In this document: one piece after another, positions 22,894 through 36,757 of the stretch
Layout of the letters: each line of letters opens with the position of its first letter
How positions within the stretch are numbered: the first letter of the stretch is position 1
Notes under the pieces: model-generated
Databases searched by the model: none
Seen by the model: only the letters and a program-made list of their open reading frames with translations
What the model was told of the DNA's origin: nothing
From: a bacterium
GTDB lineage: Bacteria > UBP6 > UBA1177 > JAKLFG01
DNA length: 40,708 bases
Direction of reading: 5' to 3'
NCBI GenBank assembly: GCA_029573155.1
Contig: JAKQHE010000252.1
Span: 1 to 40,708 of the forward strand
Position numbers and translations under genes: made by a program

Positions 22894-24576
22894 TCAGAAC
22901 ATCTCTTCGAGCAGTTCTTTTTGTTCGTTACCGAGGAACGGCTGTCGATAGAGCGTCATCAGCACTTCGCGATAAAAACCGCCTCTTTCGGCGGTATACT
23001 TTTTAAGCCTTTCAAGTTCTCCCGCCAACTCATCAAACCGCCCCGCCGCAACTGCCGCGCCGATCTCGCGCACATCGCTGTTCCAGCGGCTGATGATGCG
23101 GAACGGCATCAATGCGACCGTATCGCGGATGCGGGGAGATCCGTACAAGGCATACCGGTCGTCGAAATGATACAGCGCCCATCCCTCCGAGAGCAGTATC
23201 CGCTCCACATGTATCTCGTGGGTCTGATACGAAAGGATGTCGGGGCGACCAAGCACGATGTAATCGACCGGCAACGAAAGGACATGGTCCCGCAGATCCT
23301 TTTCATTGGTGACATTCCAATACCGGGAGGCGAACTCGTACGGATAGAGGCCCGGAACGCGGATGTCGACCGCCACCTTGACCCGCGGATAGGCATAGGC
23401 CATCAGGAAATCGGTGGAGCCCGAATAGATGCCGAAAAAATTCCCCGCGAGATCATGGTCGCGTATGAACTCGCCCGCATGCAAGGGGACCTTGTCGGGA
23501 TCTATGCCGACACCCCAATGATAGTTGAGTTGCTGCATCGACCTCACGCCGAGGGCCATCGCAACGGCAAAGACCAGCGCGTAGAGGAGCGGTCGCACCG
23601 GCGTACCGGGCATCCGCTCCGCGATGAGCGGCACCGCCAGTACACCACCCACGAGCGCAACATCGGCAGCGAAACGGGCATGGAGATACGCATTGACGAG
23701 CAGGAGCAGTGTCACAAGCGCATAAAAAGGCCTGGTACGGCGGCTTTCCCATACCGCCCAGAGCATGAGTGCGCTGAAAAGATAGAACAGTATATAATAC
23801 TGACTGTACCGAAGAGGCCCCAGCGAAAAGATAGAACTCCACTCATGGAGAGGATGCGGCCCGAACTGTAACGAGAGGTAATGCCCCGCGACCAGAGGTT
23901 GCGGGGTCGCGAAGACCACGGAAACGAGCCCGAACAACAGGAGTGCGGTCTCCTTTCCCGTCAGGTGTGTTTCGCGGGAAAGCCATCGGTCCGCGACCAA
24001 CACCGCGACAAGAAGCACCGCCAGTACCCAGGAGGGATGCGCGTTGCGCAGAAAGACCAGTATCCCCCAGAGCACGGCGGCGCGCCCCGACCTGATATCC
24101 TGCAGGGTCGTCGCGAGATAGACGACCGCGGCGATCAACAGATAGGCAAAGAATTGGGGTCGGTCGCTGACGCGCTGTTGCACCAGAAGAAATACCGTAA
24201 GGACCGAAGAGAAGGAAAGGAACAGGTCGCCGTCCGAAAGACGACGGAACAAAGCAAAAAGCACCAAGCAAAGCAGGAAAGCGGTGAGAAGACGGAAAAA
24301 GATGATACCGGCGGGACCGAGGTGCATCCACAGCAACGCCGAAAGGATATTGTGCGCCCATTCCCAGTTGACCCACGGCTGTCCGGCATGGGTGAAACTG
24401 AACATATCGGCATCAGGTATCCGGCGGTGTTCCAGCATGTCCAACCCCTGTGCGAGGTGGACCCAGAAATCACAGTTCGGTATAAGATATATCGTCAACA
24501 CCACACAGAACAAAAGAAAAGCCGTGCCGAGAAGGAGATACTGAAGGAAAGGCCTCTTCCCGTCAGAACTCGGCAT
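22894..24576 (-). CDS. Polytopic membrane protein, GT-C-like, DFWVH/HEW family
   Basis: About 560 residues and ten or more membrane segments. The first loop reads [43 protein letters not shown]. This belongs to a conserved but unnamed family with the pattern D-x-W-x-H-x3-G, P-D-x-D-x-FS-T, W-x-x-EW; such loops are compatible with a GT-C enzyme. Near the C-terminus [20 protein letters not shown] matches a second conserved segment. It is a paralogue of the protein at 26010-27704. The start (MPSSDGK) overlaps asnS by 14 bases and lacks a strong ribosome site; a GTG at 24609 is the alternative. Function unproven. Confidence 0.7.
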
Positions 24577-25954
24577 TCTTGGGTGTCCGGGGGAAAGGTT
24601 GGACATCACGGATATTGGTCATGCCGGTGAGGTACATGACGGCCCGTTCGAAACCGAGACCGAACCCGGCGTGCGGACAGCCGCCGAAGCGACGGATATC
24701 GAGGTACCACCAGTAATCTTCCTTTTTCAGACCGAGTTCTTCTATGCGGCGCAGAAGACGATCATGCCGCTCTTCGCGTTGAGAACCACCGATGAGTTCG
24801 CCGATGCCGGGGACGAGCATGTCCATCGCGGCGACGGTCTTGCCGTCGTCGTTCTGGCGCATATAGAAGGCCTTTATCTCTTTCGGATAATCGATGACGA
24901 ACACCGGCTTCTTGAAGACCTCTTCGGTGAGGTAGCGTTCATGTTCGGTCTGGAGATCGCTCCCCCACTCGATCGGATAGTCGAAGGTCTTTCCCGACTT
25001 CTTGAGCAGGTCTATCGCATCGGTATAGGTGACGCGGCCGAAATCGGATGATGCGACCTGTTCCAGCCGCTCGAGCAGCCCCTTGTCGATCATCGCGTTG
25101 AAGAACTTCATCTCTTCGGGGGCGCGCTCCAGCACGAAACGGATGATGAACTTGGTCATGTCCTCGGCCAGTCGCATATCCTCTTCGATGCCGGCAAAGG
25201 CGATCTCCGGCTCTATCATCCAGAACTCGGAGGCGTGGCGCGTGGTGTTGGAATTCTCGGCGCGGAATGTCGGACCGAAGGTGTATACATCGCGGAACGC
25301 CATGCAGAAATTCTCGACGGCAAGTTGGCCCGACACCGTCAGGTTGGTCTCCTTGCCGAAAAAGTCCTTCGAGAAGTCCACCTTCCCTTCTTCGGTGAGC
25401 GGCGGCGACTTCGGGTCGAGCGTGGTCACGCGGAACATCTCCCCTGCCCCTTCGCAATCGGATCCGGTGATGATGGGGGTATGGACATAGACGAACCCGC
25501 GGTCCTGAAAGAACGAATGGATGGCGTGGGCGAGCAGGCTTCGTACTCGAAACACCGCCGAGAAGGTGTTGCTGCGCGGCCGCAGATGGGCGATGGTCCG
25601 CAGGTACTCGAAGGAATGGCGCTTTTTCTGGAGCGGATAATCGCTGTCGCAGGCGCCGACGATCTCGATGGCGGTGGCCGCTATCTCGAACGACTGCTCC
25701 TTGCCGGGGCTCGCGACCACCGTGCCGGTGACGGCGATAGCGCTGCCGGTACCCAGTTTCGAGACCGCCTCGAAGTTGGAAAGCGTATCCTGAAACACTA
25801 TCTGGACACCTGAGAAGAACGACCCGTCGTTGAGTTCGATGAAACCGAGATTCTTCGACACGCGCAGGGTACGGACCCAGCCGGCGACAGAAACGGCAGT
25901 GTTCATACATTCGCCATGGCGTTTGAAAAGATCCTTCAGCAAGAGGTATGACAT
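24563..25954 (-). CDS. asnS: Asparaginyl-tRNA synthetase
   Basis: A 463-residue class IIb aminoacyl-tRNA synthetase. An OB-fold anticodon domain is at the N-terminus ([23 protein letters not shown]). Motif 2 is around [22 protein letters not shown], and motif 3 and the end read [34 protein letters not shown], diagnostic for AsnRS over AspRS. GGGGGAG lies five bases before the ATG. It has its own promoter in the end of the upstream gene and is followed, with overlap, by a membrane-protein gene, an odd partner for a housekeeping gene. Confidence 0.96.
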
Positions 25955-25989: not shown

Positions 25990-26017
25990 GTTATACCAGA
26001 GAACGACGATTAGTCAA
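25990..26017 (-). promoter_or_regulatory. Sigma-70-type promoter for asnS
   Basis: On the minus strand TTGACT (26012-26017) and TATAAC (25990-25995) with a 16-base spacer. Each box differs from consensus by one base. The -35 box includes the Val-Asp-stop codons of the upstream gene. The start point would be near 25983, about 29 bases before the asnS ATG. Confidence 0.72.
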
Positions 26018-27704
26018 CAGGCCCGTACTTGGCTATCTCGGCCCGCATGAGGTCATAGAGTTGCTGTTGTTCGGGTTGCCGCACGAGCGTCAGATAGTGG
26101 GCGAGTTCCCCCCGAAGGATGGGCAGATTGCCCCTTTCGACCACCTGCCGCATGAGTCGCTCGCTGGCAAGATTGATTGGGTAGAGCATCCGAAACGACC
26201 GTATCGCAGGATACCGTGCGATGACCTCCTCCTTCATGAACAGGGCCCAGTGCTGGTCGAAATAGACCAGTTCATACGGTGAAGGAGCAGCCGCAAGAAA
26301 CTCGGCGTCATGTCGATCAAGACCACTAATAGCAATATCTTTCACTATATAATCTACCGGATATTTCGTGACGATCTCAGAAAAAGACAATGACAGATAA
26401 TCTTTTATAAAATAAACAGGATAGACCTGCATGTCCCGACCATCGAAAAACACTTTTATTTCCGGCCAGGAGCGAAACATGAAGTAAGCGTGGAAAGAAA
26501 GATTGGTCGCATACAAATTGCCGGCAAGGCCTTTCTCTTCCATGAAGTCGGCCAACCATACCGGGTTCTTTGTCGTACTTACGCCAACCCCCCAATCTCG
26601 ATACATAAGTACAGTGCTTTCCGCCAGAGCGACCGCAAGAATTGCGTTAAGCATGACAACAGGGATCCGACGCAACAATCGAAGGTCGCGATCAAACAAG
26701 AATTCGGACAAATAATGGATCATGATCGGTAAGGAAATAATGAGAAATTCCGTCATGAAGCGACTGCTCCTGAACGGGAGAATCGCTACGATAAAAACCA
26801 AGAAGCCGTAAAAAGGTTCAGTTCGGATGATCCTCAAAGAAAAGAGTATCAGAAGCAGATAGTACGGGATCGTCACCGCAAAGAAGGGATGGAGCGAGAG
26901 CCAGTACAGATAGGATTTCCACTCATTGTTGTCAAGCACAAAAAAATGAGATAAAACGAAAGAAAGGGGTCCGTAAAAAAGAAGCAAGGTCATCAGGATC
27001 AAAAGAGAAGAGGAAATCGCTATCACCCGCCATCGGTATTGTCTGGCGAGACGCAACATGTCTTTCAGAAAGCGGATCCCGTCGCCCCACTTCCATCGCA
27101 GGTATCGGTCCCCTATCGTCGTTACCACCGCAACGACGCCAAGCACCCATGAGTAGTGGAAAAAAGACCACGCCGCGAAAAATAAAAGAGACTGACCAAG
27201 TAGTAACCAGCGATCCTTCCAGACAAGGGGACGCTGTAGCCGCCACACAAGCCCGGAAAGGAAGAGATATCCCAGAAGATGCGGTCTAATGGCTATGCGT
27301 ATTTGTATAACGAGCAAGATGAAAAATAACAGGGAAAAAGAAAAGGAAAGCGAAGGTGGAGACGCTCCGGCGCGAACTCGATGCTCTCGAACCGCGCCCC
27401 ATAGAAAGGCCACTATCCCGAATAATACCAGCCACCGGTACAGGAAGAAACCGACCGGCCCGGCGTAATCCCACACGAGTGAGATGAAGAGACTGAAACC
27501 CCACTCATGATTATGCCACGATGAACCCGCGTAAGTAAAACTGAACACATCCACATCGGGCACACGCATCTCAGCCCTTATCAGGCGCCCTGTGGCGACA
27601 TGCCACCAGTGATCATCGCACCCGATCTCGTGATAGGAAAGCACTCCTGTCACGAGCAGGGTGACGAAAAAGAAAATGATGAAAGCGTTACGACGGTTGG
27701 GCAT
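26010..27704 (-). CDS. Polytopic membrane protein, GT-C-like, WWH/HEW family
   Basis: About 564 residues with ten or more membrane helices. It has CDDHWWHVATGRLIRAEMRVPDVDVFSFTYAGSSWHNHEW in the first loop, the same family signature as the protein at 22894-24576, and a matching late segment (WPEIKVFFDGRDMQVYPVYF). The start at MPNRRN overlaps the upstream permease gene by 17 bases with no clear ribosome site; ATGs five and eight codons upstream (in the same frame) are alternatives. The middle of the gene is richer in A and T than its neighbours. Function unproven; membrane glycosyl transfer is possible. Confidence 0.7.
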   Translation of the reverse strand: MPNRRNAFIIFFFVTLLVTGVLSYHEIGCDDHWWHVATGRLIRAEMRVPDVDVFSFTYAGSSWHNHEWGFSLFISLVWDYAGPVGFFLYRWLVLFGIVAFLWGAVREHRVRAGASPPSLSFSFSLLFFILLVIQIRIAIRPHLLGYLFLSGLVWRLQRPLVWKDRWLLLGQSLLFFAAWSFFHYSWVLGVVAVVTTIGDRYLRWKWGDGIRFLKDMLRLARQYRWRVIAISSSLLILMTLLLFYGPLSFVLSHFFVLDNNEWKSYLYWLSLHPFFAVTIPYYLLLILFSLRIIRTEPFYGFLVFIVAILPFRSSRFMTEFLIISLPIMIHYLSEFLFDRDLRLLRRIPVVMLNAILAVALAESTVLMYRDWGVGVSTTKNPVWLADFMEEKGLAGNLYATNLSFHAYFMFRSWPEIKVFFDGRDMQVYPVYFIKDYLSLSFSEIVTKYPVDYIVKDIAISGLDRHDAEFLAAAPSPYELVYFDQHWALFMKEEVIARYPAIRSFRMLYPINLASERLMRQVVERGNLPILRGELAHYLTLVRQPEQQQLYDLMRAEIAKYGPVD

Positions 27705-28803
27705 TAGTGGGCGCATCGGCAGGGGCATTGTAGATGGCGCTCGCCTTGTACTTCTCGACGAAGTAGGTCCCGATGAGTTTCAGTATCGCGAAGGTCGGCA
27801 CCGCGACGAGCACACCGAGGAAACCGGCCAGTTCGGCGCCGGCGAAGAGCGCGATGATGACGAAGACCGGGCTGACGCCCACATTGCGCCCGACGATATT
27901 CGGAGTTATCGCGATCATGTCGGTCATCTGAATGACGGCGAACACGATAAGCACCTTGACGAAAAGCAGAGGGCCGCCGGCGCTGAGCGCCAATAGCGAC
28001 GCGACGATGATGCCGGTGATGATGCCGATGTATGGTACGAAGCAGAGCGTGCCGATGAGGATGCCGAGCGAGGCGCCGTCGGGCAGGCCGATGACCGTGA
28101 GCCCGAAGGCATAGAGCGAACCGAGCACGAAGCAGACGCCGAGTTGGCCCCGGATGAACCCGGCGAGCACCCGGTCGAACTTATGGAGCCACTCGACCAT
28201 CTCTTCCTTCCGGGCCGGAGGGAACAGGGAAACAAGCGCGTCATAGACCGCCGGGAGCCGGGTGCTCACAAAGAAGGTCACCACCGCGTAGATGAGCAGG
28301 TCCACGAGAAAGAAGAGCGCCGAGAAGGTCTGGCGGAACACCGTCCCCATGAACTGGGGCATCGATTGAAAACTCGGCACCACCGTGCCGAGCCGTTCGA
28401 GTAGCGCCTCTTCGGTGAGATTCTGGTATTCGCTGATGTTGATGCCGTTCTCGTACGCCTTCTCGTATACCCAATTGACGGTGGATACGGCGAGCAGCGG
28501 CAGTCGCTTCACCGCATCGGCGAGTTGCGCGAATATGGCGGGAAGTATCACGAAGACAAGGAGCGCGAGGAACAGGAGCGCCAATATCATGAGCAGGATC
28601 GTCGCCACGCTGCGCGGCAGGCGCATCCGGTTGTTCATGAAGGCGACGAGCGGCGATACGGCATAGGCGGTGAAGAAGGCGGCGAGCAGGATGGCGCTGA
28701 TGTGCGGCAGGAGTACGAGGATGAAGAGGAATATCAGAAAAAAACCGAGCGGTATCCAGCCCTTACGCTCGACAAAAAACGCGTATATCTTCTCTTGTAT
28801 CAT
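27688..28803 (-). CDS. AI-2E family (PerM-type) transporter
   Basis: A 371-residue inner-membrane protein with about eight helices. FILVLLPHISAILLAAFFTAYAVSPLV near the start and LIGTLCFVPYIGIITGIIVASLLAL, MTDMIAITPNIVGRNVGVSPVFVIIALFAGAELAGFLGVLVAVP in the second half are the conserved AI-2E/PerM family segments. Substrates for the family range from autoinducer-2 export to ion antiport, so the name is only a family label. The start is one base after the FecR-like gene stop, so it is co-transcribed with the secreted-protein genes. Confidence 0.9.
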   Translation of the reverse strand: MIQEKIYAFFVERKGWIPLGFFLIFLFILVLLPHISAILLAAFFTAYAVSPLVAFMNNRMRLPRSVATILLMILALLFLALLVFVILPAIFAQLADAVKRLPLLAVSTVNWVYEKAYENGINISEYQNLTEEALLERLGTVVPSFQSMPQFMGTVFRQTFSALFFLVDLLIYAVVTFFVSTRLPAVYDALVSLFPPARKEEMVEWLHKFDRVLAGFIRGQLGVCFVLGSLYAFGLTVIGLPDGASLGILIGTLCFVPYIGIITGIIVASLLALSAGGPLLFVKVLIVFAVIQMTDMIAITPNIVGRNVGVSPVFVIIALFAGAELAGFLGVLVAVPTFAILKLIGTYFVEKYKASAIYNAPADAPTNAQPS

Positions 28804-28804
28804 A

Positions 28805-29545
28805 TCACTTCACCGGCGCGTTCTCGCGGTACCACGCATCGGCGTTGGCAGCCCCGATGGGGACGGGTTTGGAAAGCGTCCCGTCGGCGGAGAACTTGAC
28901 CATCTGCATCGCCTCGACGACGATCTTCTCCCACTCCTGCACCCCTATCTCCTTCGGTCCGGCGACCTCCTGTTTCGAACGGTTCTTCTTCCATTCCTGA
29001 ATGTTCATCTTCTTCGGCTCGGCCGGCTTGGCGGGCACCGCGATCTCGACCTTGCCGTTCTCGACCATGAGCGCTCCGGCGCCGTTCGTCTCGACCACGA
29101 AGCCGAAACTGGTGCCGCGCACCCCGGCGACGGCGTTCTTCGACTCGACGACGAAGCCACCCGCCTCGTTCTTGCTGACCAGTTTCTTCACATTCGACCA
29201 TATCTTGCCGAAAAAGACCTTCATCTTGTAACTCTCGCGTTCACAGGAGGAGTTCGACACTATCTCGGTCAGACTGACGAGCGAGTTCTCACCCACCTTG
29301 AGCGCCGAGCCGTCGGGGAATATCAGCATGAGCCGGGAGGCCGACTCGGTCTTGACGAAATGGGAGGCGGGCACCTCCTGCCCCGACTTCAGGGGCGTCC
29401 ATGCCTGCTGGTCGGGCGACGACTTCGCCGTCCCTTCCAGTTTATCCACCTTCACGGCGCCGGCGGCGCCGCACTCCGCCGCGCCGAGCGTCGATGCGCA
29501 GACGGCAAGGGCGACGCACAAGGAAACAAGGAGCATATTCCGCAC
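28805..29545 (-). CDS. Secreted FecR-domain protein
   Basis: A 246-residue protein with a Sec signal peptide (MRNMLLVSLCVALAVCAST). The FecR domain follows: AWTPLKSGQEVPASHFVKTESASRLMLIFPDGSALKVGENS, VFFGKIWSNV, and NAVAGVRGTSFGFVVE, the last being a strongly conserved motif. Here it stands alone, without the transmembrane anti-sigma part, so it is probably periplasmic and structural or sensory. The start is a GTG, because AAGGAGG sits five bases upstream; the ATG eleven codons earlier has no such site. It lies between the FlgT-like and AI-2E genes. Confidence 0.85.
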   Translation of the reverse strand: MRNMLLVSLCVALAVCASTLGAAECGAAGAVKVDKLEGTAKSSPDQQAWTPLKSGQEVPASHFVKTESASRLMLIFPDGSALKVGENSLVSLTEIVSNSSCERESYKMKVFFGKIWSNVKKLVSKNEAGGFVVESKNAVAGVRGTSFGFVVETNGAGALMVENGKVEIAVPAKPAEPKKMNIQEWKKNRSKQEVAGPKEIGVQEWEKIVVEAMQMVKFSADGTLSKPVPIGAANADAWYRENAPVK

Positions 29546-29584
29546 GATCCCCTCCTTCAGGAAAACCTTCGGTGCCATGATAGA

Positions 29585-30739
29585 CTATTTGGGCTCGACC
29601 ACAACTTTTTTCCCGTCGATGCCGGTCGCCTTGAATTTGTCAGCCAGCGACTGCGCGAGCCCGTTGGCGTCGCCGCGGAACATGACGCGGAAGGTCGCCG
29701 TGCCGCCTTCGAACGACTGCACCACCACGCCGGTCACCAGTTTGTTGGCGCGCACCGCCTGTTCCGCCTTGAACATCGCGACCGAGTCGGGCAGTTTGCC
29801 GACCACGAGCGTGAACTCCTCGCCGTTGTTGAGCGTCTGGGTCCACGACTTCACCATGTCGGTCACCAGTTTCTGCGACGCGTTCTTCGCCGCCTTGTCT
29901 ATCGCCATGGTGCCGCCGGTCACCGGGTCGATGTGGGCCTGCGCCGCCTGCCCCGCCGACGAGCCGAGCACCTTGCCGTCCTTGAGGTTGATGGCGCGCA
30001 TCGTGACATTTGCCTGATTCGAGGTCATCGTCGAGCCGGCGACCGACCCGAGCGTGCGGGCCATCGCCTTGCCGACTATCACGATGTCGGCGTCGATGTT
30101 CTTGGTGAGTTGCAGGACATCCTGATTGCTGATGTCGACCACCTGAAAGGCCGGCTTCACTTTGGCGCCGGTCGCAAGCGCGTTGCGATCGACGATACGG
30201 AAGTTCTTTTCGAGCAGGGCCGCGGTGAGCGCCTGTTCGGCCGCGCCGATGTCGCTCTGCATCGTCTGCGCGGTCGCGCCGCCCCACCAGAACGAGAACA
30301 CCGTCGCGCCGACATTCTGCTCAGCCATCATGACGACCACTTTGGGATAGTTCATCCGTTCGAGCGTCGTCTGGAGGAGTTCGAGGTCGTTCTTGAGGTC
30401 GCTTTCCTTCACGGTCACCTCGACCTTCGCCGTCACGACCCCCTGCGCCTCCTTCGCTTCGAGTACCTTATAGGCCTTGATGTAGCCCTTCACTTTCGAG
30501 ATTATCTTGTCCGACACCAGTTGGTAGTTCTCGACGACCGTCTCGGCCGAAACGGTCGCACCGATGACCATCTCGAGCGCGCGCCGCAGGGCATCCTCGG
30601 TCGCCTCCTTCTTGGCCAGTTCGACATTGCCGTTCACCACGGCGCCGAACCCTTCGACCGTCACCTTCTTCTCGGACGCCTCGACCGCGCCGAACATCAG
30701 CGCCACCGCGCAGAAGACCATAACAAAGGATCTTTTCAT
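29585..30739 (-). CDS. Secreted FlgT-like protein (N-terminal FlgT domain)
   Basis: A 384-residue protein with a signal peptide (MKRSFVMVFCAVALMFGAVEA, cut before Ser). Residues 25-110 resemble the N-terminal domain of flagellar assembly protein T: VTVEGFGAVVNGNVELAKKEATEDALRRALEMVIGATVSAETVVENYQLVSDKI. A middle domain (about 135-270) with VVVMMAEQNVG and DADIVIVGKAMA follows the same architecture. GGAGGG precedes the ATG. No flagellar gene is seen in the window, so the flagellar link is uncertain; similar proteins occur in envelope lipoprotein operons. It is 14 bases from the LPP20-like gene. Confidence 0.75.
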   Translation of the reverse strand: MKRSFVMVFCAVALMFGAVEASEKKVTVEGFGAVVNGNVELAKKEATEDALRRALEMVIGATVSAETVVENYQLVSDKIISKVKGYIKAYKVLEAKEAQGVVTAKVEVTVKESDLKNDLELLQTTLERMNYPKVVVMMAEQNVGATVFSFWWGGATAQTMQSDIGAAEQALTAALLEKNFRIVDRNALATGAKVKPAFQVVDISNQDVLQLTKNIDADIVIVGKAMARTLGSVAGSTMTSNQANVTMRAINLKDGKVLGSSAGQAAQAHIDPVTGGTMAIDKAAKNASQKLVTDMVKSWTQTLNNGEEFTLVVGKLPDSVAMFKAEQAVRANKLVTGVVVQSFEGGTATFRVMFRGDANGLAQSLADKFKATGIDGKKVVVEPK

Positions 30740-30753
30740 GACACGCCCTCCCG

Positions 30754-31587
30754 TCAGTACAGAATGACCACCCGACCCTCGCTCAGCGCGTCGGGGGCGA
30801 GTTTCGTTTGTATCGCCGTCACTTCGGCGGCGCCGACGACCAGGTCGGACTTATTCTTGAGTTTCGACGCCTTCACCACGAGCAGCGTCGAGGCGTCGCC
30901 GTACAACGCCGCCACCGCATCGAGATCGTTCTTGACATAGCGCGCCACCCCGTTCGCCTTGAGCGCCTCATCCTTGACCTGCTTCTTGCTGTACACGATC
31001 TTGCCGTCGTCGGTGTAGACCGCCGGGAACATCGTCGGCGCGAATTTGAGACCGCGCGCATCGAACACGAGCGTCTTCTTGGCGTCGGCCGCCGGTGCCG
31101 CCGCGCCCGCCTTCACCGATTCCTTCGACGCCAGTTCCTTGTCGGCGGCGCCGGTCGCGGCCGCCTTATCGTACAGCGAGGAGAGCGGGACCCGTATCAC
31201 GACATCCACCCCGCCATCGGAGTAATATTTCGTCGTGACGATCTCGGCCCCCCTGACGAGTCCCTCGACCGAGGTCTTGACCTCCATGGATTCCTCCATC
31301 GAGTTCTTCATGGTCGTGGTCCCGACGACCGTCACCCCCTTGATCGCCTCGAGCAGGTTGCGGTATGCGTCGGCCTTGGCCACCCGTTCGGCCCCGAGCC
31401 GCGCGACCGCCACATTGGGCGCCTTCAGGTCGGGCGCGCCGCTACCGGTCGCGTAGACATACTGCTTGGTCCAGTTTATCTTCCCGCTCGGCACATCCTG
31501 CACCGCATCGCTCTTGTCGGCCTCCTGTGCCGTCAAGATACCCCCGAGGAAAGCCAGCACCGTCAAAAGAGACATCATCCGCGCCAT
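30754..31587 (-). CDS. Secreted LPP20-like protein
   Basis: A 277-residue protein with a signal peptide (MARMMSLLTVLAFLGGILTAQEA). There is no lipobox cysteine, unlike typical LPP20 lipoproteins. The family segment is YVYATGSGAPDLKAPNVAVARLGAERVAKADAYRNLLEAIKGVTVVGTTTM, then DGGVDVVIRVPLSSLYD. The C-terminal half (PTMFPAVYTDDGKIVYSKKQV) resembles the tail of this group. AAGGAG precedes the ATG at six bases. It is the first of the run LPP20-FlgT-FecR-AI-2E and begins 71 bases past glgA, so it may share the glgA transcript. Confidence 0.78.
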   Translation of the reverse strand: MARMMSLLTVLAFLGGILTAQEADKSDAVQDVPSGKINWTKQYVYATGSGAPDLKAPNVAVARLGAERVAKADAYRNLLEAIKGVTVVGTTTMKNSMEESMEVKTSVEGLVRGAEIVTTKYYSDGGVDVVIRVPLSSLYDKAAATGAADKELASKESVKAGAAAPAADAKKTLVFDARGLKFAPTMFPAVYTDDGKIVYSKKQVKDEALKANGVARYVKNDLDAVAALYGDASTLLVVKASKLKNKSDLVVGAAEVTAIQTKLAPDALSEGRVVILY

Positions 31588-31658
31588 GGCGTTCTCCTTA
31601 AAAAAATCCGCGATCATCATAGACCTGTCGATCACTCTATTATTCGAAAAACACTTCA

Positions 31659-33110
31659 TTATTTTTCCACCAGCACCCGTTCATAGACCGCGAGGTACCG
31701 GCCGGCCGGCTCACGCCAGCCGAGGTCGGCCGTCATGCACCGCCGGGCCATGAGGCGATAGCGGTCGCGATCGTCGCGGAACAGGGAAACGGCGTCGGCG
31801 ACGCGCCGCTGGAGCGCCTCCGGCGTGTAGTCGCGGAACTTGAGTCCCGTCCCGTGGGCCGGATGCTCGTCCATGTCGATGACCGTCTCGTCGAGCCCGC
31901 CGACCGCCCGGACGACCGGCACCGTCCCGTAGCGCATCGCGTACATCTGGTTGAGCCCGCACGGCTCGTGGCGCGACGGCATGAGGTAAAAATCGCTCCC
32001 GGCGTGGATGAGGTGCGCCAGCCGCTCGTCGTAGGCGGTCTTCAGCACGATACGGTCGGAGAACCGTTCGGCGAGATTGCGCAGGGCGTCGGTCAGTAGT
32101 TTCTCCCCGTCGCCCAGTATCGCGAAGAGCGCGTCGCCGCGTGCCGCCGCCTCGCCGAGCATCCGCACAAGAAGATCCACCCCCTTGTCGATGTTGATGT
32201 GGGTGACCATCCCGAACAGCGGCAGGTCGGTCGCGCGGTCGAGCCCGAACTCGGCGAGCAACGCCGTGCGGCATGCCGATCGTCCTTCGTCATCGGGCGT
32301 GGCATAGCGGACCGGCAGGTGTATGTCGTTCTCGGGGTCCCAGTGGTCAGCGTCGATACCGTTGCGGATCGGCGTCATCTTGTGGGCCATCTGCCGCATG
32401 AGCCCGTCCAGTCCGTGACCGAACTCGGCGCTCCGTGTCTCCTCGGCGTAGCGGTGACTGACCGTCGTGATGGCGTCGGCATAGACAATGCCGCCCTTCA
32501 AGTAGTTGATATGGTTATAGAATTCCAATTTATCGGGGCTGAACACCCCCCACCCGAGGTTCAGGATGTGCAGATCGTACATCCAGAACTTGCCCTGATA
32601 GGCGATGTTGTGGATGGTGAGCACCGTCCGCGCCGTCGCCAAACGACCGTAGGGCGCATAGGCCTCCTTTAGATAGACCGGCACGAGCGCCGTCTGCCAA
32701 TCGTTGCAATGGATGAGGTCGGGCCGCACGATGTTCTCGGCCACCTCGACGACCGCCCGTGAAAAAAAGACGAACCGCTCCGAGTTGTCGGGGTAATCGC
32801 CGGTCGCGGTGCCGTAGAGGGCGTCGCGCTCGAAATAGTGGCTCGCGACGAAATAGACCGGCACCTCGCTCCCCGGCAGGGTCCCCTGCCATATCTCGGC
32901 CGGCTCCTCGTGGTCCGACACCGATATCGGGAAACGGTGCGGCGTCCGCTCGATGCCGAACCGTTCGCTGTCTATGATGGCGTAGAGCGGCATGACCATC
33001 GCGACCTCGCACCGGCCCGCCAACGCCTTGGCGAGCGCGCCGACCGTCTCGGAAAGCGCACCGGCCCGGGTGAACGGGTAAATCTCGGAAGAAGCGATAA
33101 GGACCCTCAC
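31659..33110 (-). CDS. glgA: Glycogen/starch synthase (GT5)
   Basis: A 483-residue GT5 enzyme that extends alpha-1,4-glucan from an NDP-glucose donor. Family segments are clear: IHCNDWQTALVPVYLKE, LTIHNIAYQGKFW, YADAITTVSHRYAEE, NGIDADHWDPEND, and SDFYLMPSRHEPCGLNQMYAMRYGTVPVVRAVGGLDETV. The normally invariant N-terminal KTGGLADV is RAGALSET here, with Arg15 where E. coli has Lys15. The start is a GTG in MRVLIASSEIYPF, with GAGGAA upstream and a promoter 41 bases away. No other glycogen gene is in the window. Confidence 0.92.
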   Translation of the reverse strand: MRVLIASSEIYPFTRAGALSETVGALAKALAGRCEVAMVMPLYAIIDSERFGIERTPHRFPISVSDHEEPAEIWQGTLPGSEVPVYFVASHYFERDALYGTATGDYPDNSERFVFFSRAVVEVAENIVRPDLIHCNDWQTALVPVYLKEAYAPYGRLATARTVLTIHNIAYQGKFWMYDLHILNLGWGVFSPDKLEFYNHINYLKGGIVYADAITTVSHRYAEETRSAEFGHGLDGLMRQMAHKMTPIRNGIDADHWDPENDIHLPVRYATPDDEGRSACRTALLAEFGLDRATDLPLFGMVTHINIDKGVDLLVRMLGEAAARGDALFAILGDGEKLLTDALRNLAERFSDRIVLKTAYDERLAHLIHAGSDFYLMPSRHEPCGLNQMYAMRYGTVPVVRAVGGLDETVIDMDEHPAHGTGLKFRDYTPEALQRRVADAVSLFRDDRDRYRLMARRCMTADLGWREPAGRYLAVYERVLVEK

Positions 33111-33150
33111 AGCCGCCGTTCCTCTTAAATAAGAAAAAAGACCAAGCGAC

Positions 33151-33179
33151 AGTATAGCAACAAACGGCCCCCGAGTCAA
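33151..33179 (-). promoter_or_regulatory. Sigma-70 promoter for glgA
   Basis: On the minus strand TTGACT (33174-33179) and TATACT (33151-33156) with an ideal 17-base spacer. Start near 33144 leaves a 33-base leader to the GTG. The -35 box ends about a dozen bases from the truncated end of the transposase remnant. Confidence 0.78.
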
Positions 33180-33191
33180 CTTTTTGAAGGG

Positions 33192-33958
33192 GTCGCTCGC
33201 GCTCTGCGGGCGATACGGAAGAAGACCGGCCCGACCGCCGATCAGACGCAGTCATGGAAGACCTTCCTCAAGAATCACCGTGACGGCATCGCGGCGATGG
33301 ACTTCTTTACGGTGCCCACGGTGAAGTTCCAACTCCTGTATGTGTTCTTCGTCATCTCCCATGCGCGGCGGCGGATCATCCATTTCGCCTGTACGCTCAA
33401 TCCCACGGCCGAATGGGTGTTGCAACAGCTCCGGGAGGCATTCCCGTTCGACGAGGCGCCGCGATATCTTATCTTCGACCGGGGCTGTCCGTTCCCGTCG
33501 CTCAGGGCATCGATCCGGGCGATGGGGATATCCCCTATCATGACCGGCTATCAGTCGCCGTGGCAGAACGGCGTCGCGGAACGATTCGTGTTGAGTGCCC
33601 GTTCGGACTTGCTGAATCGGGTGATCGTGCTGAACGAGAAACATCTGCATCGGCTGATGAAGGAGTATGTCGCATGAGCGGTTTTCGGCCCTCGTAAACC
33701 TCACCCCCAACCCTCTCCAAAGTGGAGAGGGAGAATTCGGTCACCTCATCCAATGCGAGGGCGACAAAGTCCTTCTCCGTTGCGGAGAAGGTGAAGGATG
33801 AGGTTGTCTGGGCAACGAGGACCGTTGTCATCTGGCCGTTTCGCGCGACTCGCCTATCGGCAGAGAGAAAGAGACGCGGCCTGAAAAGGCGGAACTCATC
33901 GCTTTGCCGCGGCTCGGTGGATTACAGCATCGCTACACATGGAAGAAAGCGGCGTAAC
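33192..33958 (+). pseudogene. Integrase-core (rve, DDE) transposase remnant, truncated and split
   Basis: Two pieces of one gene. Piece one (33192-33675) lacks the N-terminal helix-turn-helix part and reads QSWKTFLKNH, GIAAMDFFTVPT (first catalytic Asp), YLIFDRG (second Asp), then SPWQNGVAERFV (Glu) and IVLNEKHLHRLMKEYVA before a stop. Piece two (33848-33958), in another frame, reads DSPIGREKETRP, then LPRLGGLQHRYTWKKAA and stop, the normal C-terminus of this family. About a dozen residues (YYH-DRTH region) are replaced by 172 bases at 33676-33847 that contain an inverted repeat. The gene is dead. Confidence 0.85.
33698..33805. repeat. Inverted-repeat element inserted in the transposase gene
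   Basis: An imperfect long inverted repeat: the left arm (33698-33719) begins AACCTCACCCCCAACC and the right arm (33784-33805) is its approximate complement ending GGATGAGGTT. Each arm also carries a small palindrome, CCCTCTCC-AAAGT-GGAGAGGG and CCTTCTCC-GTTGC-GGAGAAGG. It encodes nothing and looks like a MITE or a folded intergenic repeat. Confidence 0.7.
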
Positions 33959-33972
33959 GGCCGCCGCTTTTC
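33947..33972 (+). terminator. Terminator-like hairpin at the end of the transposase remnant
   Basis: AAAGCGGC (33947-33954) pairs perfectly with GCCGCTTT (33964-33971) around a nine-base loop and is followed by one more T. It overlaps the stop codon of the second transposase piece. From here to 34173 no gene or repeat was recognised. Confidence 0.45.
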
Positions 33973-34173
33973 ACTTCGAAGCTAAATTCGGTGAGGGGAG
34001 AACTGCATCGAAAATGGCTTCTGAACGGCATTTTCTCGCGGTTTGACGCTGTTTCTTCGCGTCTCACCTCCCCTACTTCGATCCGCGTGAGAAAAAGGGT
34101 CGGCAACAGGGATTCCCAACCGTGGATCGGCGCGCTTTTCAGGGTTCCCGAGGATTTCGAACCTTTTGATCAA

Positions 34174-34449
34174 CTATTGAATATCACTATCCGACAATGA
34201 TTTGACAGAGGACAGGTACTTGCGGTCCCCCTTTACGATGTAGTCGGGGCTGTTCACGCCCAGCCCATAGACATACTGCTCAAGGATGCCGCCGTCGGCG
34301 TCAACCTTCGCTACGGGGGTGAGTTGTCCTGCATAGAGCAAGCGGTACTCCACTATTGCGTCCGCCTGCGGGCCGTAGCCTTCGGCGGAGGACCCGTCCT
34401 TCTTCGTCTTGGCGATGAGCCGGTTCAGTTTTTTTTCTTCATCCTCTTC
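34174..34449 (-). pseudogene. Displaced RHS core fragment
   Basis: A 91-codon open stretch without a start, in the reading frame of the gene before it and separated from it by two stop codons. It reads KKLNRLIAKTKKDG, then VEYRLLYAGQLTPVAKVDADGGILEQYVYG and NSPDYIVKGDRKY, the conserved RHS stretch ahead of the core, before diverging and stopping. The same stretch occurs in the RHS gene at 34847-35830 with about 90 per cent DNA identity. This is an RHS orphan left by recombination. Confidence 0.78.
34217..34323 (-). repeat. Direct repeat copy 1 (RHS core, downstream of immunity gene)
   Basis: 107 bases that align without gaps to 35612-35718, with about eleven mismatches, most of them clustered at 34257-34269. 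The pair flanks the toxin tip and immunity gene. Confidence 0.9.
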
Positions 34450-34455
34450 TCACGA

Positions 34456-34842
34456 TCACAGATCCGTCGGCGGCCGAGGGACTGTTTCTTTTCTTATTAT
34501 TGCGTTGAGAAAACCGTGAAATACATTGATAGCGATAATCATTATGAAAGAAAGCCACATGTCTTTGTCGTCTCCGCCCGTGATTATTCCCTTCAAAAAT
34601 GACGGTGCATAAAACAACAATATTATCGAAAAAACGAAGGATGCTATTATCGACATCGCTGATGGATTTTTTAACAGAGCATAGTCCATAAAAGCTATTG
34701 CCATGATCGACCCAAAGATGCTTGCTCCTATGGAGGAACTAAATGTCTGATAATGCATGTACAATGCCGCAGCCAATATCCCGCTGATTAGAAGAGATAC
34801 CAACAAACGGAGAAAAACTATTTTGGAGTTTAGGTTTTTCAT
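34456..34842 (-). CDS. Small membrane protein, putative immunity to the RHS toxin
   Basis: A 128-residue protein with four probable membrane segments, among them VFLRLLVSLLISGILAAALYM, SIIASFVFSIILLFYAPSFL and LSFIMIIAINVFHGFLNAI. No family is recognised. The ATG comes four bases after the RHS stop, with GGTGAGG overlapping the junction, so it is coupled to the toxin gene. It is much richer in A and T (about 35-40 per cent GC in sampled lines) than the chromosome around it, as is the toxin tip. Position, size and composition fit an immunity gene of a polymorphic toxin; this is inference. Confidence 0.65.
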   Translation of the reverse strand: MKNLNSKIVFLRLLVSLLISGILAAALYMHYQTFSSSIGASIFGSIMAIAFMDYALLKNPSAMSIIASFVFSIILLFYAPSFLKGIITGGDDKDMWLSFIMIIAINVFHGFLNAIIRKETVPRPPTDL

Positions 34843-34846
34843 GACC

Positions 34847-35830
34847 TCACCTTGTTTCGTTAATGAACTTCTGTACGAGATTACGAGAGGCGTTTTCTGC
34901 ATCATTATAATTGGAAAAGGGGGTCCATCCAGGATTGAAATATCTTGTGTCAGGGTATTCAGTTAGGGTTAGGAACCCAACCGCATGAGCAAACCATGCA
35001 AAGGCATTATTGATTAGACCGCCATGCGCATATTTGTCCTGAAGCGTATGCATGGCCCTGCCAAGTTCGATGAGCGCGCTTCGTCTGTTTCCTGCCTTTT
35101 GACAAAGAATCGCGTTTTGAAAATGCTTTTCTATGAGTTCCTCTGCTTCCTTGGCGTTATCAGGCATATAATGAGCAGCATTGTTCTTCTGATCATCATC
35201 TACTTTCAGGTTAAATGTTTGGGCTAAAAGTATCTCGTATGGATCAAACCCAAAATCTTTCATAGCGCTGGCTGTCAAATCTTGATGTGCTCGGTCATTC
35301 CATAACCCATTCACATCCACAAAGTTCACCGGATCATTCCCTGCATACACATAGAAGTTGCTCCCCCCATTGAACCCGAGCGGTTCCTTTGAGGTCCAGC
35401 GTGCGGTCTCGGGGTCGTACCACCGTGCGCCGAACTTCGTGAGCCCGGTATCGGTATCGCGGAAGCCGCCCGCGAAGCCGAAGATCAAATCGAAGTCGCC
35501 TTCCTCGTTGATGACCTGTCCGCTCACATCGTAGTCGAGCCGCTTGACCACCGCTCCGTCGTGGGTATCCACCACCAGCCGCACACTGCCGAGATGATCC
35601 TTCACGAGCCGGTACTTGCGGTCCCCCTTCACGATGTAGTCGGGGCTGTTGATGCCGGTGGCGTAGACATACTGCTCAAGGATGCCGCCGGCGGCGTCAA
35701 CCTTCGCCACGGGGGTGAGGGGCCCATTGGGGTCAGGGCGCAAGAAGTGAGTAACTTCATCGGGCCAGTTCCCGCTCCAACTTCTCGATTCGATTCCGTT
35801 TTCCCGCATTTTCCGCCACCTCCCTCTCAA
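34847..35830 (-). CDS. RHS core with C-terminal zinc phospholipase C/P1 nuclease-like toxin tip, 5'-truncated
   Basis: The frame holds 327 codons. From LTPVAKVDAAGG on it is RHS: YVYATGINSPDYIVKGDRKY, KDHLGSVRLVVD, DLIFGFAGGFRDTDTGLTKFGARWYDPETARWTSKEP, YVYAGNDPVNFVDVNGL. The tip (from 35302, 151 residues) has WNDRAHQDLT, AAHYMPDN and GRAMHTLQDKYAHGG, that is His182, Asp near 211-213, His220, His261-x3-Asp265-x3-His269, then His282 and Glu291. This order mirrors the metal ligands of zinc-dependent phospholipase C and P1 nuclease. The long 5' part of an RHS gene is missing: upstream codons (LRPDP and before) lie in a transposon. Expression of this stump is doubtful. Confidence 0.8.
   Translation of the reverse strand: MRGRWRKMRENGIESRSWSGNWPDEVTHFLRPDPNGPLTPVAKVDAAGGILEQYVYATGINSPDYIVKGDRKYRLVKDHLGSVRLVVDTHDGAVVKRLDYDVSGQVINEEGDFDLIFGFAGGFRDTDTGLTKFGARWYDPETARWTSKEPLGFNGGSNFYVYAGNDPVNFVDVNGLWNDRAHQDLTASAMKDFGFDPYEILLAQTFNLKVDDDQKNNAAHYMPDNAKEAEELIEKHFQNAILCQKAGNRRSALIELGRAMHTLQDKYAHGGLINNAFAWFAHAVGFLTLTEYPDTRYFNPGWTPFSNYNDAENASRNLVQKFINETR
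35612..35718 (-). repeat. Direct repeat copy 2 (RHS core, in the toxin gene)
   Basis: Partner of 34217-34323, same orientation and length. Recombination between the two would remove or exchange the toxin-immunity cassette of about 1.4 kb. Confidence 0.9.
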
Positions 35831-36757
35831 ACTGCCGCGCCGCCATCCCCGCCCCCGTCGCCTTCATCTTCACCAGCGCCCCGATCTCGCCCAGCGACAG
35901 CGCCGTGTGCCGCTTGAGCAGCAGAACGAACGCTTTGCGCGGATCGTTGCGGATGCCCCGCGTCGTCAACCGCTCTTCGCTCACACCGTATGCCGCGAGG
36001 ACCGCCTTCCGTATCGCGTCGACGCTTACTTCGCGCAGTTTCCGGTATTCCGGCACCGCGCGCGGGTCGGGTTTTTTCTGTACCCGCTGGAGCGCCTCGC
36101 CGAGGAAACCTTCGTCCCCCAACACCGAGTTCGCGCCGTAGATGAGTCGCGTCTCCGGCTTGTCCGCTCCTATCTCGTCGAGGATCGCGCGGTAGTTCTC
36201 CGCACCGCCGCCCCGCTCGAGGAGCCGTGTCGGATCGACGAGATCGTCCTTTTCGCCCGTCAGGTAGCGGGCGCAACTGCTCCAGCGGTAGGCATCGGGT
36301 TCCTCCACCAGTCCGGCGCGAACCGGGTTGAGGTGGATGTAGACCGAGAGCCGCAGGAGATAGTCGTCGTTCTCCACGAGCACCGCTTTGTAGCGGCTCT
36401 GGAACACCGAGCCGACGAGCCGGTACTTCACGCGGAAGTAGTTGGCGTAGGAACTCTGGAACTGGTGCATCGCCCGCGGCAGGTCGCCCTTCGTCGTTTC
36501 AATGAGCAGGTGATAGTGGTTGTCCATCAGGCAGTAGGCGTGGACGATGAGCCGGTATTTCTGCGCGACGAACAGCAACCGTGCGAGGAACTGTTCGCGG
36601 TCGGCGGTCCGGCGGAATATCTTGTCCTTGCGGTGTCCCCGGTTGATCACATGGTACAATGCGCCGGGGTAGGTTATGCGGAGCGGCCGTGCCATGGAGG
36701 GAGCATAGCGAACATCGCCTCGCTTGTCAAGTTATATAGTTCTTGCGCCCTGACCCC
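35729..36757. mobile_element. REP-type transposon with 29-bp terminal inverted repeats
   Basis: The ends 35729-35757 and 36729-36757 are inverted copies, 25 of 29 bases the same. The outer 18 bases are GGGGTCAGGGCGCAAGAA at the left and their complement at the right; the five inner variable bases fall between GTTA and TTCTTG. The left end can fold (GAAGT-gagta-ACTTC). One gene, the tyrosine transposase, fills the element. Its left end abuts RHS codons, so it inserted into, or was recombined next to, the RHS gene. Confidence 0.82.
35757..36695 (-). CDS. REP-associated tyrosine transposase (Y1, HUH)
   Basis: A 312-residue HUH-type transposase. The start is MARPLRITYPGALYHVINRG, the metal-binding HUH pair is in CLMDNHYHLLIET, and FQSSYANYFRVKY supplies a tyrosine. 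RYKAVLVENDDYLLRLSVYIHLNPVRAGLVEEPDAYRWSS is the family core. The C-terminal half has a helix-turn-helix-like segment (SLGEIGALVKMKATGAGMAARQFERE). The gene is intact and the reading frame open, so the element could be active. No ribosome site is clear at the ATG. Confidence 0.92.
   Translation of the reverse strand: MARPLRITYPGALYHVINRGHRKDKIFRRTADREQFLARLLFVAQKYRLIVHAYCLMDNHYHLLIETTKGDLPRAMHQFQSSYANYFRVKYRLVGSVFQSRYKAVLVENDDYLLRLSVYIHLNPVRAGLVEEPDAYRWSSCARYLTGEKDDLVDPTRLLERGGGAENYRAILDEIGADKPETRLIYGANSVLGDEGFLGEALQRVQKKPDPRAVPEYRKLREVSVDAIRKAVLAAYGVSEERLTTRGIRNDPRKAFVLLLKRHTALSLGEIGALVKMKATGAGMAARQFEREVAENAGKRNRIEKLERELAR

Follow-up and report, generated by a model that had tools for sequence, protein, structure and literature searches.

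The question raised by this locus is what four adjacent genes, three encoding exported proteins and one a permease, do together in a bacterium of the lineage UBP6 (UBA1177; JAKLFG01). The window, that is, the whole stretch of DNA analyzed, comprises the 40,708 nucleotides of contig JAKQHE010000252.1 from the draft assembly GCA_029573155.1 (2.69 Mb in 288 contigs), and an earlier note, made from its letters alone, had proposed that the products of these genes may form an envelope complex. The genes lie co-directionally on the minus strand (27688-31587) with all open reading frames (ORFs) intact. We consider the chances about even that they are what a cell-envelope system, conserved and non-flagellar, retains as its reduced core. 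The features of the locus, in the direction of reading, are the following:

30754..31587, minus strand: LPP20/FlgP-like exported protein of 277 amino acids (aa), without lipobox, with an SHS2-type domain and a Tp0624-type second domain

29585..30739, minus strand: FlgT-like exported protein of 384 aa, with an SHS2-type domain (residues ~24-127), a TolB_N/PelC/CsgG-type domain (~130-304) and a C-terminal alpha/beta domain

29546..29584, minus strand: FlgT-FecR junction of 39 bases; the same position holds CsgG and PEGA lipoprotein genes in three relatives (G002, G003 and G004)

28805..29545, minus strand: FecR-domain exported protein of 246 aa, counted from a GTG at 29545 with the Shine-Dalgarno sequence AAGGAGG

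27688..28803, minus strand: AI-2E family permease of 371 aa, the sole copy found in this genome

The tight run described in the earlier note was confirmed: the gaps are 14 bases between the LPP20-like and FlgT-like genes and 1 base between the FecR and AI-2E genes (both exact), and 39 bases between the FlgT-like and FecR genes given the GTG start of the latter, or 6 with its first ATG. The LPP20-like start at 31587 is preceded by an AAGGAG ribosome site. Promoter (5 vs. 2.5 in shuffles) and terminator (7 vs. 6.5) scans gave little over shuffled sequences, and no minus-strand terminator-like site was found between 27688 and 33179. Pfam LPP20, an SHS2-type domain, matched the ORF at 30754..31659 (5.5e-8; 33.6 bits vs. 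a cut-off of 25.9), FecR the ORF at 28805..29578 (4.2e-11; 43.6 bits vs. 24) and AI-2E_transport (PF01594) the ORF at 27688..28803 (2e-50; 172.3 bits vs. 34.3). FlgT_N remained under its cut-off of 28.8 bits in the window protein (3.4e-4; 21.5 bits) and exceeded it in all four relatives scanned (34.3, 36.5, 46.4 and 34.6 bits), and no Pfam match to FlgT_M or FlgT_C was obtained in the window protein up to E 1. Judged by these matches, the name FlgT suits the window protein only weakly, while the other three names stand above curated cut-offs. Signal peptides were read by eye on the LPP20-like and FlgT-like sequences. All four genes are under purifying selection, with ratios of nonsynonymous to synonymous substitution of 0.06-0.13 between two congeneric genomes and 0.06-0.16 within a sister genus.

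Predicted folds and sequence profiles of the LPP20-like and FlgT-like proteins were compared with known structures. The AlphaFold2 (AF2) model of the LPP20-like protein (predicted local distance difference test, pLDDT, 85.6) matched domains D1-D2 of Tp0624 (5jir; Foldseek 1.2e-13; VIA Z 19.4, 3.3 Å over 229 residues, 19% identity), the next structural match being Helicobacter Lpp20 (5ok8; Z 9.3). The match to 5jir reaches the last residue of the LPP20-like protein and stops at residue 317 of the entry, ahead of the C-terminal domain. Passages of PMC7716261 describe a Pseudomonas aeruginosa protein in which one domain resembles a Tp0624 domain. At the profile level the LPP20-like protein was related to Campylobacter FlgP (9hmf; 1.4e-16) and to Tp0624 (1.8e-14), and the FlgT-like protein to the same FlgP (1.1e-6). 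Both profiles align to FlgP gap-free through the SHS2 helix and the following stretch, the ring insert; the LPP20-like alignment has one single-residue gap, located further on than the insert. According to passages of a 2025 cryo-electron microscopy work (PMC12222027), a segment inserted after the SHS2 helix and ahead of strand 2 is tied to ring oligomerisation. In addition, residues 130-300 of the FlgT-like protein resemble PelC (of PelBC), TolB and CsgG (Z ~10).

Several of the structural results weigh against a ring-forming relative of the flagellar proteins. The AF2 model of the FlgT-like protein is middling (pLDDT 77.8; predicted TM-score, pTM, 0.54), its Foldseek match to FlgT (3w1e; 3.7e-11) has a TM-score of only 0.30, and direct sequence matches to FlgT are weak (E 0.0035-0.16). 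The similarity of its residues 24-127 to Lpp20/Tip-alpha (Z ~8) is near the level that the tool calls common, and the AF2 monomer models of both proteins draw the insert mainly as helix rather than as the beta-hairpin of FlgP. Taken together, the LPP20-like family is homologous to FlgP and the FlgT-like family, more weakly, to FlgT, yet the latter is not a flagellar FlgT.

Two features that the earlier note had singled out were also followed. The window LPP20-like protein does lack a lipobox, and the same holds for 27 of 29 aligned LPP20-like sequences (window's included) when a strict motif is required within the stretch checked, some of the listed starts being mechanical and perhaps too early. 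The two sequences with a strict lipobox, and two more with a looser cysteine seen by eye, are WOR-3 or WOR-3-like. The missing lipobox is thus the norm in this branch, and its reading as an oddity was rejected. As for FecR, the absence of an anti-sigma part was borne out: only the FecR domain lies above cut-off and no sigma gene occurs among the immediate neighbours, for which reasons a role as anti-sigma factor was rejected. The other FecR gene of the genome adjoins a sigma-70-family gene (Sigma70_r2).

Comparison within the phylum indicated how the four-gene run relates to longer ones. The congeneric genome G001 carries the same four genes. G002, G003 and G004, from two other genera of the same family, carry a six-gene version in the order LPP20, FlgT, CsgG lipoprotein, PEGA lipoprotein, FecR and AI-2E, and the CsgG lipoprotein of G002 matches Pfam CsgG (5.6e-32) and, weakly, FlgT_M and FlgT_C. 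Full-length CsgG was not found in two genomes of the window's genus, where the best hits were partial (4.0e-9 and 6.1e-9). From gene content, the window's genus appears to be a reduced version of the run of its sister genera, CsgG and PEGA having apparently been lost, or never gained. In another family, f4 (G025, G026 and G027), LPP20, FlgT and FecR are contiguous and AI-2E is not in the run. In two genomes (G018 and G022) of f2, a family of the window's own order, LPP20 adjoins AI-2E, with no FlgT or FecR at the locus within the stretch fetched.

FlgT-like hits in f2 genomes match only the C-terminal part (~residues 230-357); the three inspected were rejected as true FlgT-like proteins and are probably paralogues. 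They lie in a different, conserved three-gene cluster (L076:3081-7431, L079:11675-15991 and L078:7451-11763) encoding a 606-620 aa protein, a weakly FlgT-like C-terminal protein and a 405-410 aa protein; in one scan each, the first had no Pfam match and the second (from L076) was DUF6175.

A gene-neighbourhood check, which the earlier note had suggested, was then run beyond the window's family. The FlgT-like profile search of named genomes returned 44 loci, 40 of them outside the family, whose record titles cover Deltaproteobacteria, Myxococcota, WOR-3, Nitrospiraceae, Schekmanbacteria, Aegiribacteria, other groups and unclassified bacteria. As a simple gene caller misses genes in GC-rich loci, clusters were called by searching every ORF with the profiles (partners counted at E <= 1e-8). 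Within 5 kb of the FlgT-like gene, the 40 loci held LPP20-like genes in 33 cases, FecR in 23, CsgG in 15 (a sixteenth lies beyond 5 kb), PEGA in 5 and AI-2E in 5. Four of the loci are contigs used to build the profiles; without them (n = 36) the counts were 29, 20, 14, 5 and 5, respectively. LPP20, FlgT and FecR, partly with CsgG, PEGA or AI-2E, recur in Deltaproteobacteria and Myxococcota, and LPP20-FlgT recurs with CsgG-like genes in WOR-3. Homologues are therefore linked rather than scattered, which partly supports the proposed envelope complex; a physical interaction among the products would be its other part.

Three loci merit separate mention. The Desulfobacterales locus L097 (5645-17077) presents an extended run of LPP20, a TPR-SLH protein, FlgT, a GNA1162-like gene, CsgG, PEGA, FecR, another FlgT-like gene and CsgG-like genes, of which one carries TPRs. 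In G071 (L072:3547-5676) a CHASE2 adenylate/guanylate cyclase gene lies between the LPP20-like and FlgT-like genes. L110, a record under the title Anaeromyxobacter dehalogenans, shares its gene run with G027, a genome from the window's phylum, and looks like a mislabelled metagenome-assembled genome.

The frequency of CsgG near FlgT-like genes bears on an alternative in which the proteins belong to a secretion pore of CsgG or PelC type, as its periplasmic and outer-membrane portion, and serve curli-like export or the export of exopolysaccharide. The position of the CsgG lipoprotein between FlgT and FecR in the six-gene version and the resemblance of the FlgT-like fold to PelC and CsgG favour this explanation, but in the window's genus, where no full-length CsgG was found, purifying selection still acts on the remaining four genes, and the weak FlgT_M/FlgT_C similarity of the G002 CsgG suits a ring part equally. 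We regard such an export role as clearly unlikely.

The association of the permease with the other members of the run was evaluated against chance. AI-2E genes are present in 84 of 99 genomes, usually as a single copy. Of the 39 genomes that hold AI-2E and at least one LPP20-like or FlgT-like hit, 9 have the two within 5 kb of each other. Five of these nine belong to the window's family, so that 4 of 34 remain for other families. Beyond the phylum the link was observed in 2 of 11 genomes vs. 0.11 expected, and in the named survey in 5 loci vs. ~0.23 expected, both expectations using a rounded rather than computed density of 0.45 genes per Mb. One training row of the AI-2E profile (L064) was out of frame; the profile nevertheless scored AI-2E proteins of the family at 1e-140 or better, and those from elsewhere at 1e-52 to 1e-94. 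Since four of the five named loci (L102, L103, L104 and L106) form one related group (53-73% identity), which diminishes the weight of the survey count, the link was counted by lineage and not by locus: the window's order, a Myxococcota-like group with G055, Schekmanbacteria (L120) and G032. The link is kept with varying subsets of the other genes (LPP20-AI-2E in G018 and G022, FlgT-AI-2E in G032, FlgT-CsgG-AI-2E in L120). Downstream in L102, L104 and L106 are genes that we take to be thrS, infC or rplT.

The strongest competing explanation, although a doubtful one, treats the permease as a bystander with a separate task and the remaining proteins as an envelope brace that stiffens the outer membrane or tethers it to peptidoglycan, on the model of Tol-Pal or Tp0624. 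The LPP20-like protein corresponds to the D1-D2 unit of Tp0624, for which an envelope-stabilising role is proposed by its authors in passages of PMC5104382, and the FlgT-like protein has a TolB_N-type domain. TPR and SLH domain genes occur amid the cluster in two Deltaproteobacteria loci (between LPP20 and FlgT in L097, between FecR and LPP20 in L116), and AI-2E is not part of the f4 run. Against this, the permease gene recurs beside the other genes, in varying combinations, in at least four lineages, and in the two f2 genomes it adjoins LPP20 where the stretch fetched holds no FlgT or FecR. No OmpA-type peptidoglycan-binding domain was matched by Pfam in the four window proteins.

The survey also contains results that pull against a single conserved system. 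Gene order is loose: LPP20-like genes are on the same strand as the FlgT-like gene in 22 of 33 named loci and FecR in 13 of 23 (AI-2E in 5 of 5), leaving 11 and 10, respectively, on the opposite strand, and 3 of the 40 loci have none of the five partners. Among the 99 genomes, FlgT-like hits were found in 38, LPP20-like hits in 36 and both in 31, yet the two lie within 5 kb in only 13 of the latter, a count that leaves out G078 (one gene hit twice) and keeps f2 hits among the 31. The 18 genomes without this link are 15 from f2, with the weak C-terminal FlgT hits, plus G047, G077 and G078; in four of the 15 the hits are 6.5-8.4 kb apart. FecR reaches up to 12 copies per genome, and its linkage is given as a raw count. 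Finally, part of the linkage is plain synteny, because GlgA and AsnS, which flank the cluster, are likewise kept in the window's order. The neighbours of the cluster are:

31659..33179, minus strand: upstream neighbour, glycogen/starch synthase (GlgA), a flank kept in the order

26010..27728, minus strand: downstream neighbour overlapping the AI-2E gene, 572 aa, polytopic by eye, without Pfam family

24563..25954, minus strand: downstream neighbour, which we take from its sequence to be asparaginyl-tRNA synthetase (AsnS), the conserved flank on the AI-2E side of the cluster

That the four genes are neighbours merely by inheritance, without common function, would fit the retention of GlgA upstream and AsnS downstream. 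Outside the order, however, the flanks change and core members stay together, and spacings of 14, 39 and 1 bases are close; we judge mere synteny highly unlikely. GlgA is probably not part of the envelope system.

In the f3 genome G006, a GlgA-like gene is followed by an exported protein of 232 aa whose status is doubtful, by AI-2E and, as read by eye, by AsnS; the 232-aa protein scored E 0.0015 with one LPP20-like profile and 7.2 with a deeper one, and was left uncounted. A shortened GlgA-like gene also lies upstream of the LPP20-AI-2E pair of G018. Only the starch-synthase catalytic domain was above cut-off in the GlgA-position genes of G018 (L137:8356-9231; 291 aa) and G006 (L144:3889-4704; 271 aa). 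Two ~570-aa proteins (22894-24609 and 26010-27728), polytopic by eye and without Pfam family, bracket AsnS in the window, as do related copies in relatives within the family. Between GlgA and a further gene, presumably YebC, the window holds mobile-type debris (33297-36695) with a sub-cut-off integrase-core match, an IS200-type transposase (Y1_Tnp, 4.7e-12) and a weak YD-shell (RHS-like) match; YebC is the immediate neighbour of the GlgA-like gene in G014, another genome of the order.

Given the relationship to FlgP and FlgT, it was asked whether a flagellum is involved. FlhA, the sole flagellar gene sought, gave no match in any of the 25 genomes searched from the order (the window's and 24 others); genes can be missed in drafts, but incompleteness does not account for absence in 25 of 25. 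The flagellar reading is thus rejected for the order, and the earlier remark that no flagellar gene is near holds genome-wide as far as FlhA is concerned. FlhA occurs in all three f4 genomes and in 11 of the 40 genomes from which the named loci come; some of these matches may stem from type III secretion genes, and the completeness of the 40 genomes is not given. The coexistence of FlhA with the LPP20-FlgT-FecR trio in f4, and of relatives of the trio with no FlhA in the window's order, could suggest a relic, that is, FlgP/FlgT genes left to drift once motility had been lost. Purifying selection argues against drift, as do the lack of an FlhA match in 29 of the 40 genomes (same reserve as to completeness) and the identity of the usual neighbours, which are LPP20, FecR and CsgG (flagellar genes were not sought inside the loci, and unassigned f4 ORFs were partly scanned); a relic is therefore extremely improbable.

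The explanation that we favour, at roughly even confidence, is a system related to the FlgO/FlgP/FlgT outer ring but non-flagellar, in which a periplasmic ring scaffold or conduit would be linked to the inner-membrane AI-2E permease. The LPP20-like and FlgT-like proteins, exported according to their signal peptides, carry the FlgP/FlgT-type SHS2 domain with the stretch that aligns to the ring-forming one of FlgP, and may assemble into periplasmic rings or discs beneath the outer membrane. In relatives, the TolB/PelC/CsgG-type domain of the FlgT-like protein might dock on a CsgG-type lipoprotein ring; FecR would be a second periplasmic partner and the permease the inner-membrane end. The assembled scaffold or conduit would span the envelope and support or gate whatever the permease moves. 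In the window's genus the locus holds neither CsgG nor PEGA and the genome search gave no full-length CsgG, so that the ring-permease part there would have to work without that pore. A broader version, which we consider rather unlikely, posits a hitherto undescribed trans-envelope machine in which FecR and periplasmic rings of FlgP/FlgT type connect the AI-2E permease of the inner membrane to an outer-membrane ring of CsgG type. The flagellar H-ring (FlgO/P/T) would have been borrowed, as a copy, from this older machine without flagellar function, and the window's genus would represent a naturally minimal form from which the outer-membrane ring has been lost.

The closest known counterpart is the H-ring of the Vibrio polar flagellum, made by the FlgP, FlgO and FlgT proteins according to passages of PMC6375700; in V. 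fischeri flgP, flgO and flgT are the consecutive loci VF_1883-1885, as given in part of PMC3948606. Both systems place a FlgP-type SHS2 protein beside a FlgT-type protein, and sister genera add a CsgG-type lipoprotein that weakly resembles FlgT_M and FlgT_C, FlgT-type domains there being apparently split between two proteins. The present system differs in the absence of FlhA from genome and order, in its linkage to FecR, PEGA and AI-2E, and in an LPP20-like protein without lipobox. The FlgP basal disk of Campylobacter (9hmf) shares the gap-free alignment over SHS2 helix and ring insert, but the LPP20-like protein has a second, Tp0624-type domain, no lipobox and an insert that is helical in the monomer model. 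With Treponema pallidum Tp0624 it shares the D1-D2 tandem fold and not the C-terminal OmpA-like D3, and its relatives extend over several phyla; the three domains of Tp0624 were not observed together outside Treponema, according to PMC5104382.

Among Leptospira proteins, NCBIfam matches were obtained to LipL46 with the FlgT-like protein (3.4e-11) and to Lsa33 and LipL45 with the FecR protein (3e-10 and 5.3e-10), all far under curated cut-offs, and the window proteins differ in having no lipobox. The CsgG curli pore and PelC share the fold of FlgT-like residues 130-300, and a CsgG lipoprotein gene is part of the run in sister genera, unlike in the window's genus. The FecR protein has the periplasmic domain of FecR anti-sigma regulators without an adjacent sigma gene, and the permease shares the PF01594 domain of AI-2E transporters, from which transport is predicted. 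A text search of open-access literature retrieved no description of this gene cluster, and no paper combining FecR, CsgG and LPP20, or AI-2E, FecR and PEGA; the open-access papers naming LPP20, FlgT and FlgP together all concern flagellar motors, as far as the passages retrieved from them indicate.

FlgP and FlgT have so far been studied as add-ons of the flagellar motor. Relatives of this pair that are conserved, selected and tied to a permease where FlhA is absent would be candidates for the origin of the outer-ring parts, and Tp0624 of Treponema is placed within a wide family. To our knowledge, the physiological roles of AI-2E permeases are mostly unknown; the gene set described here can be tested for common function, and may provide these permeases with a set of envelope partners.

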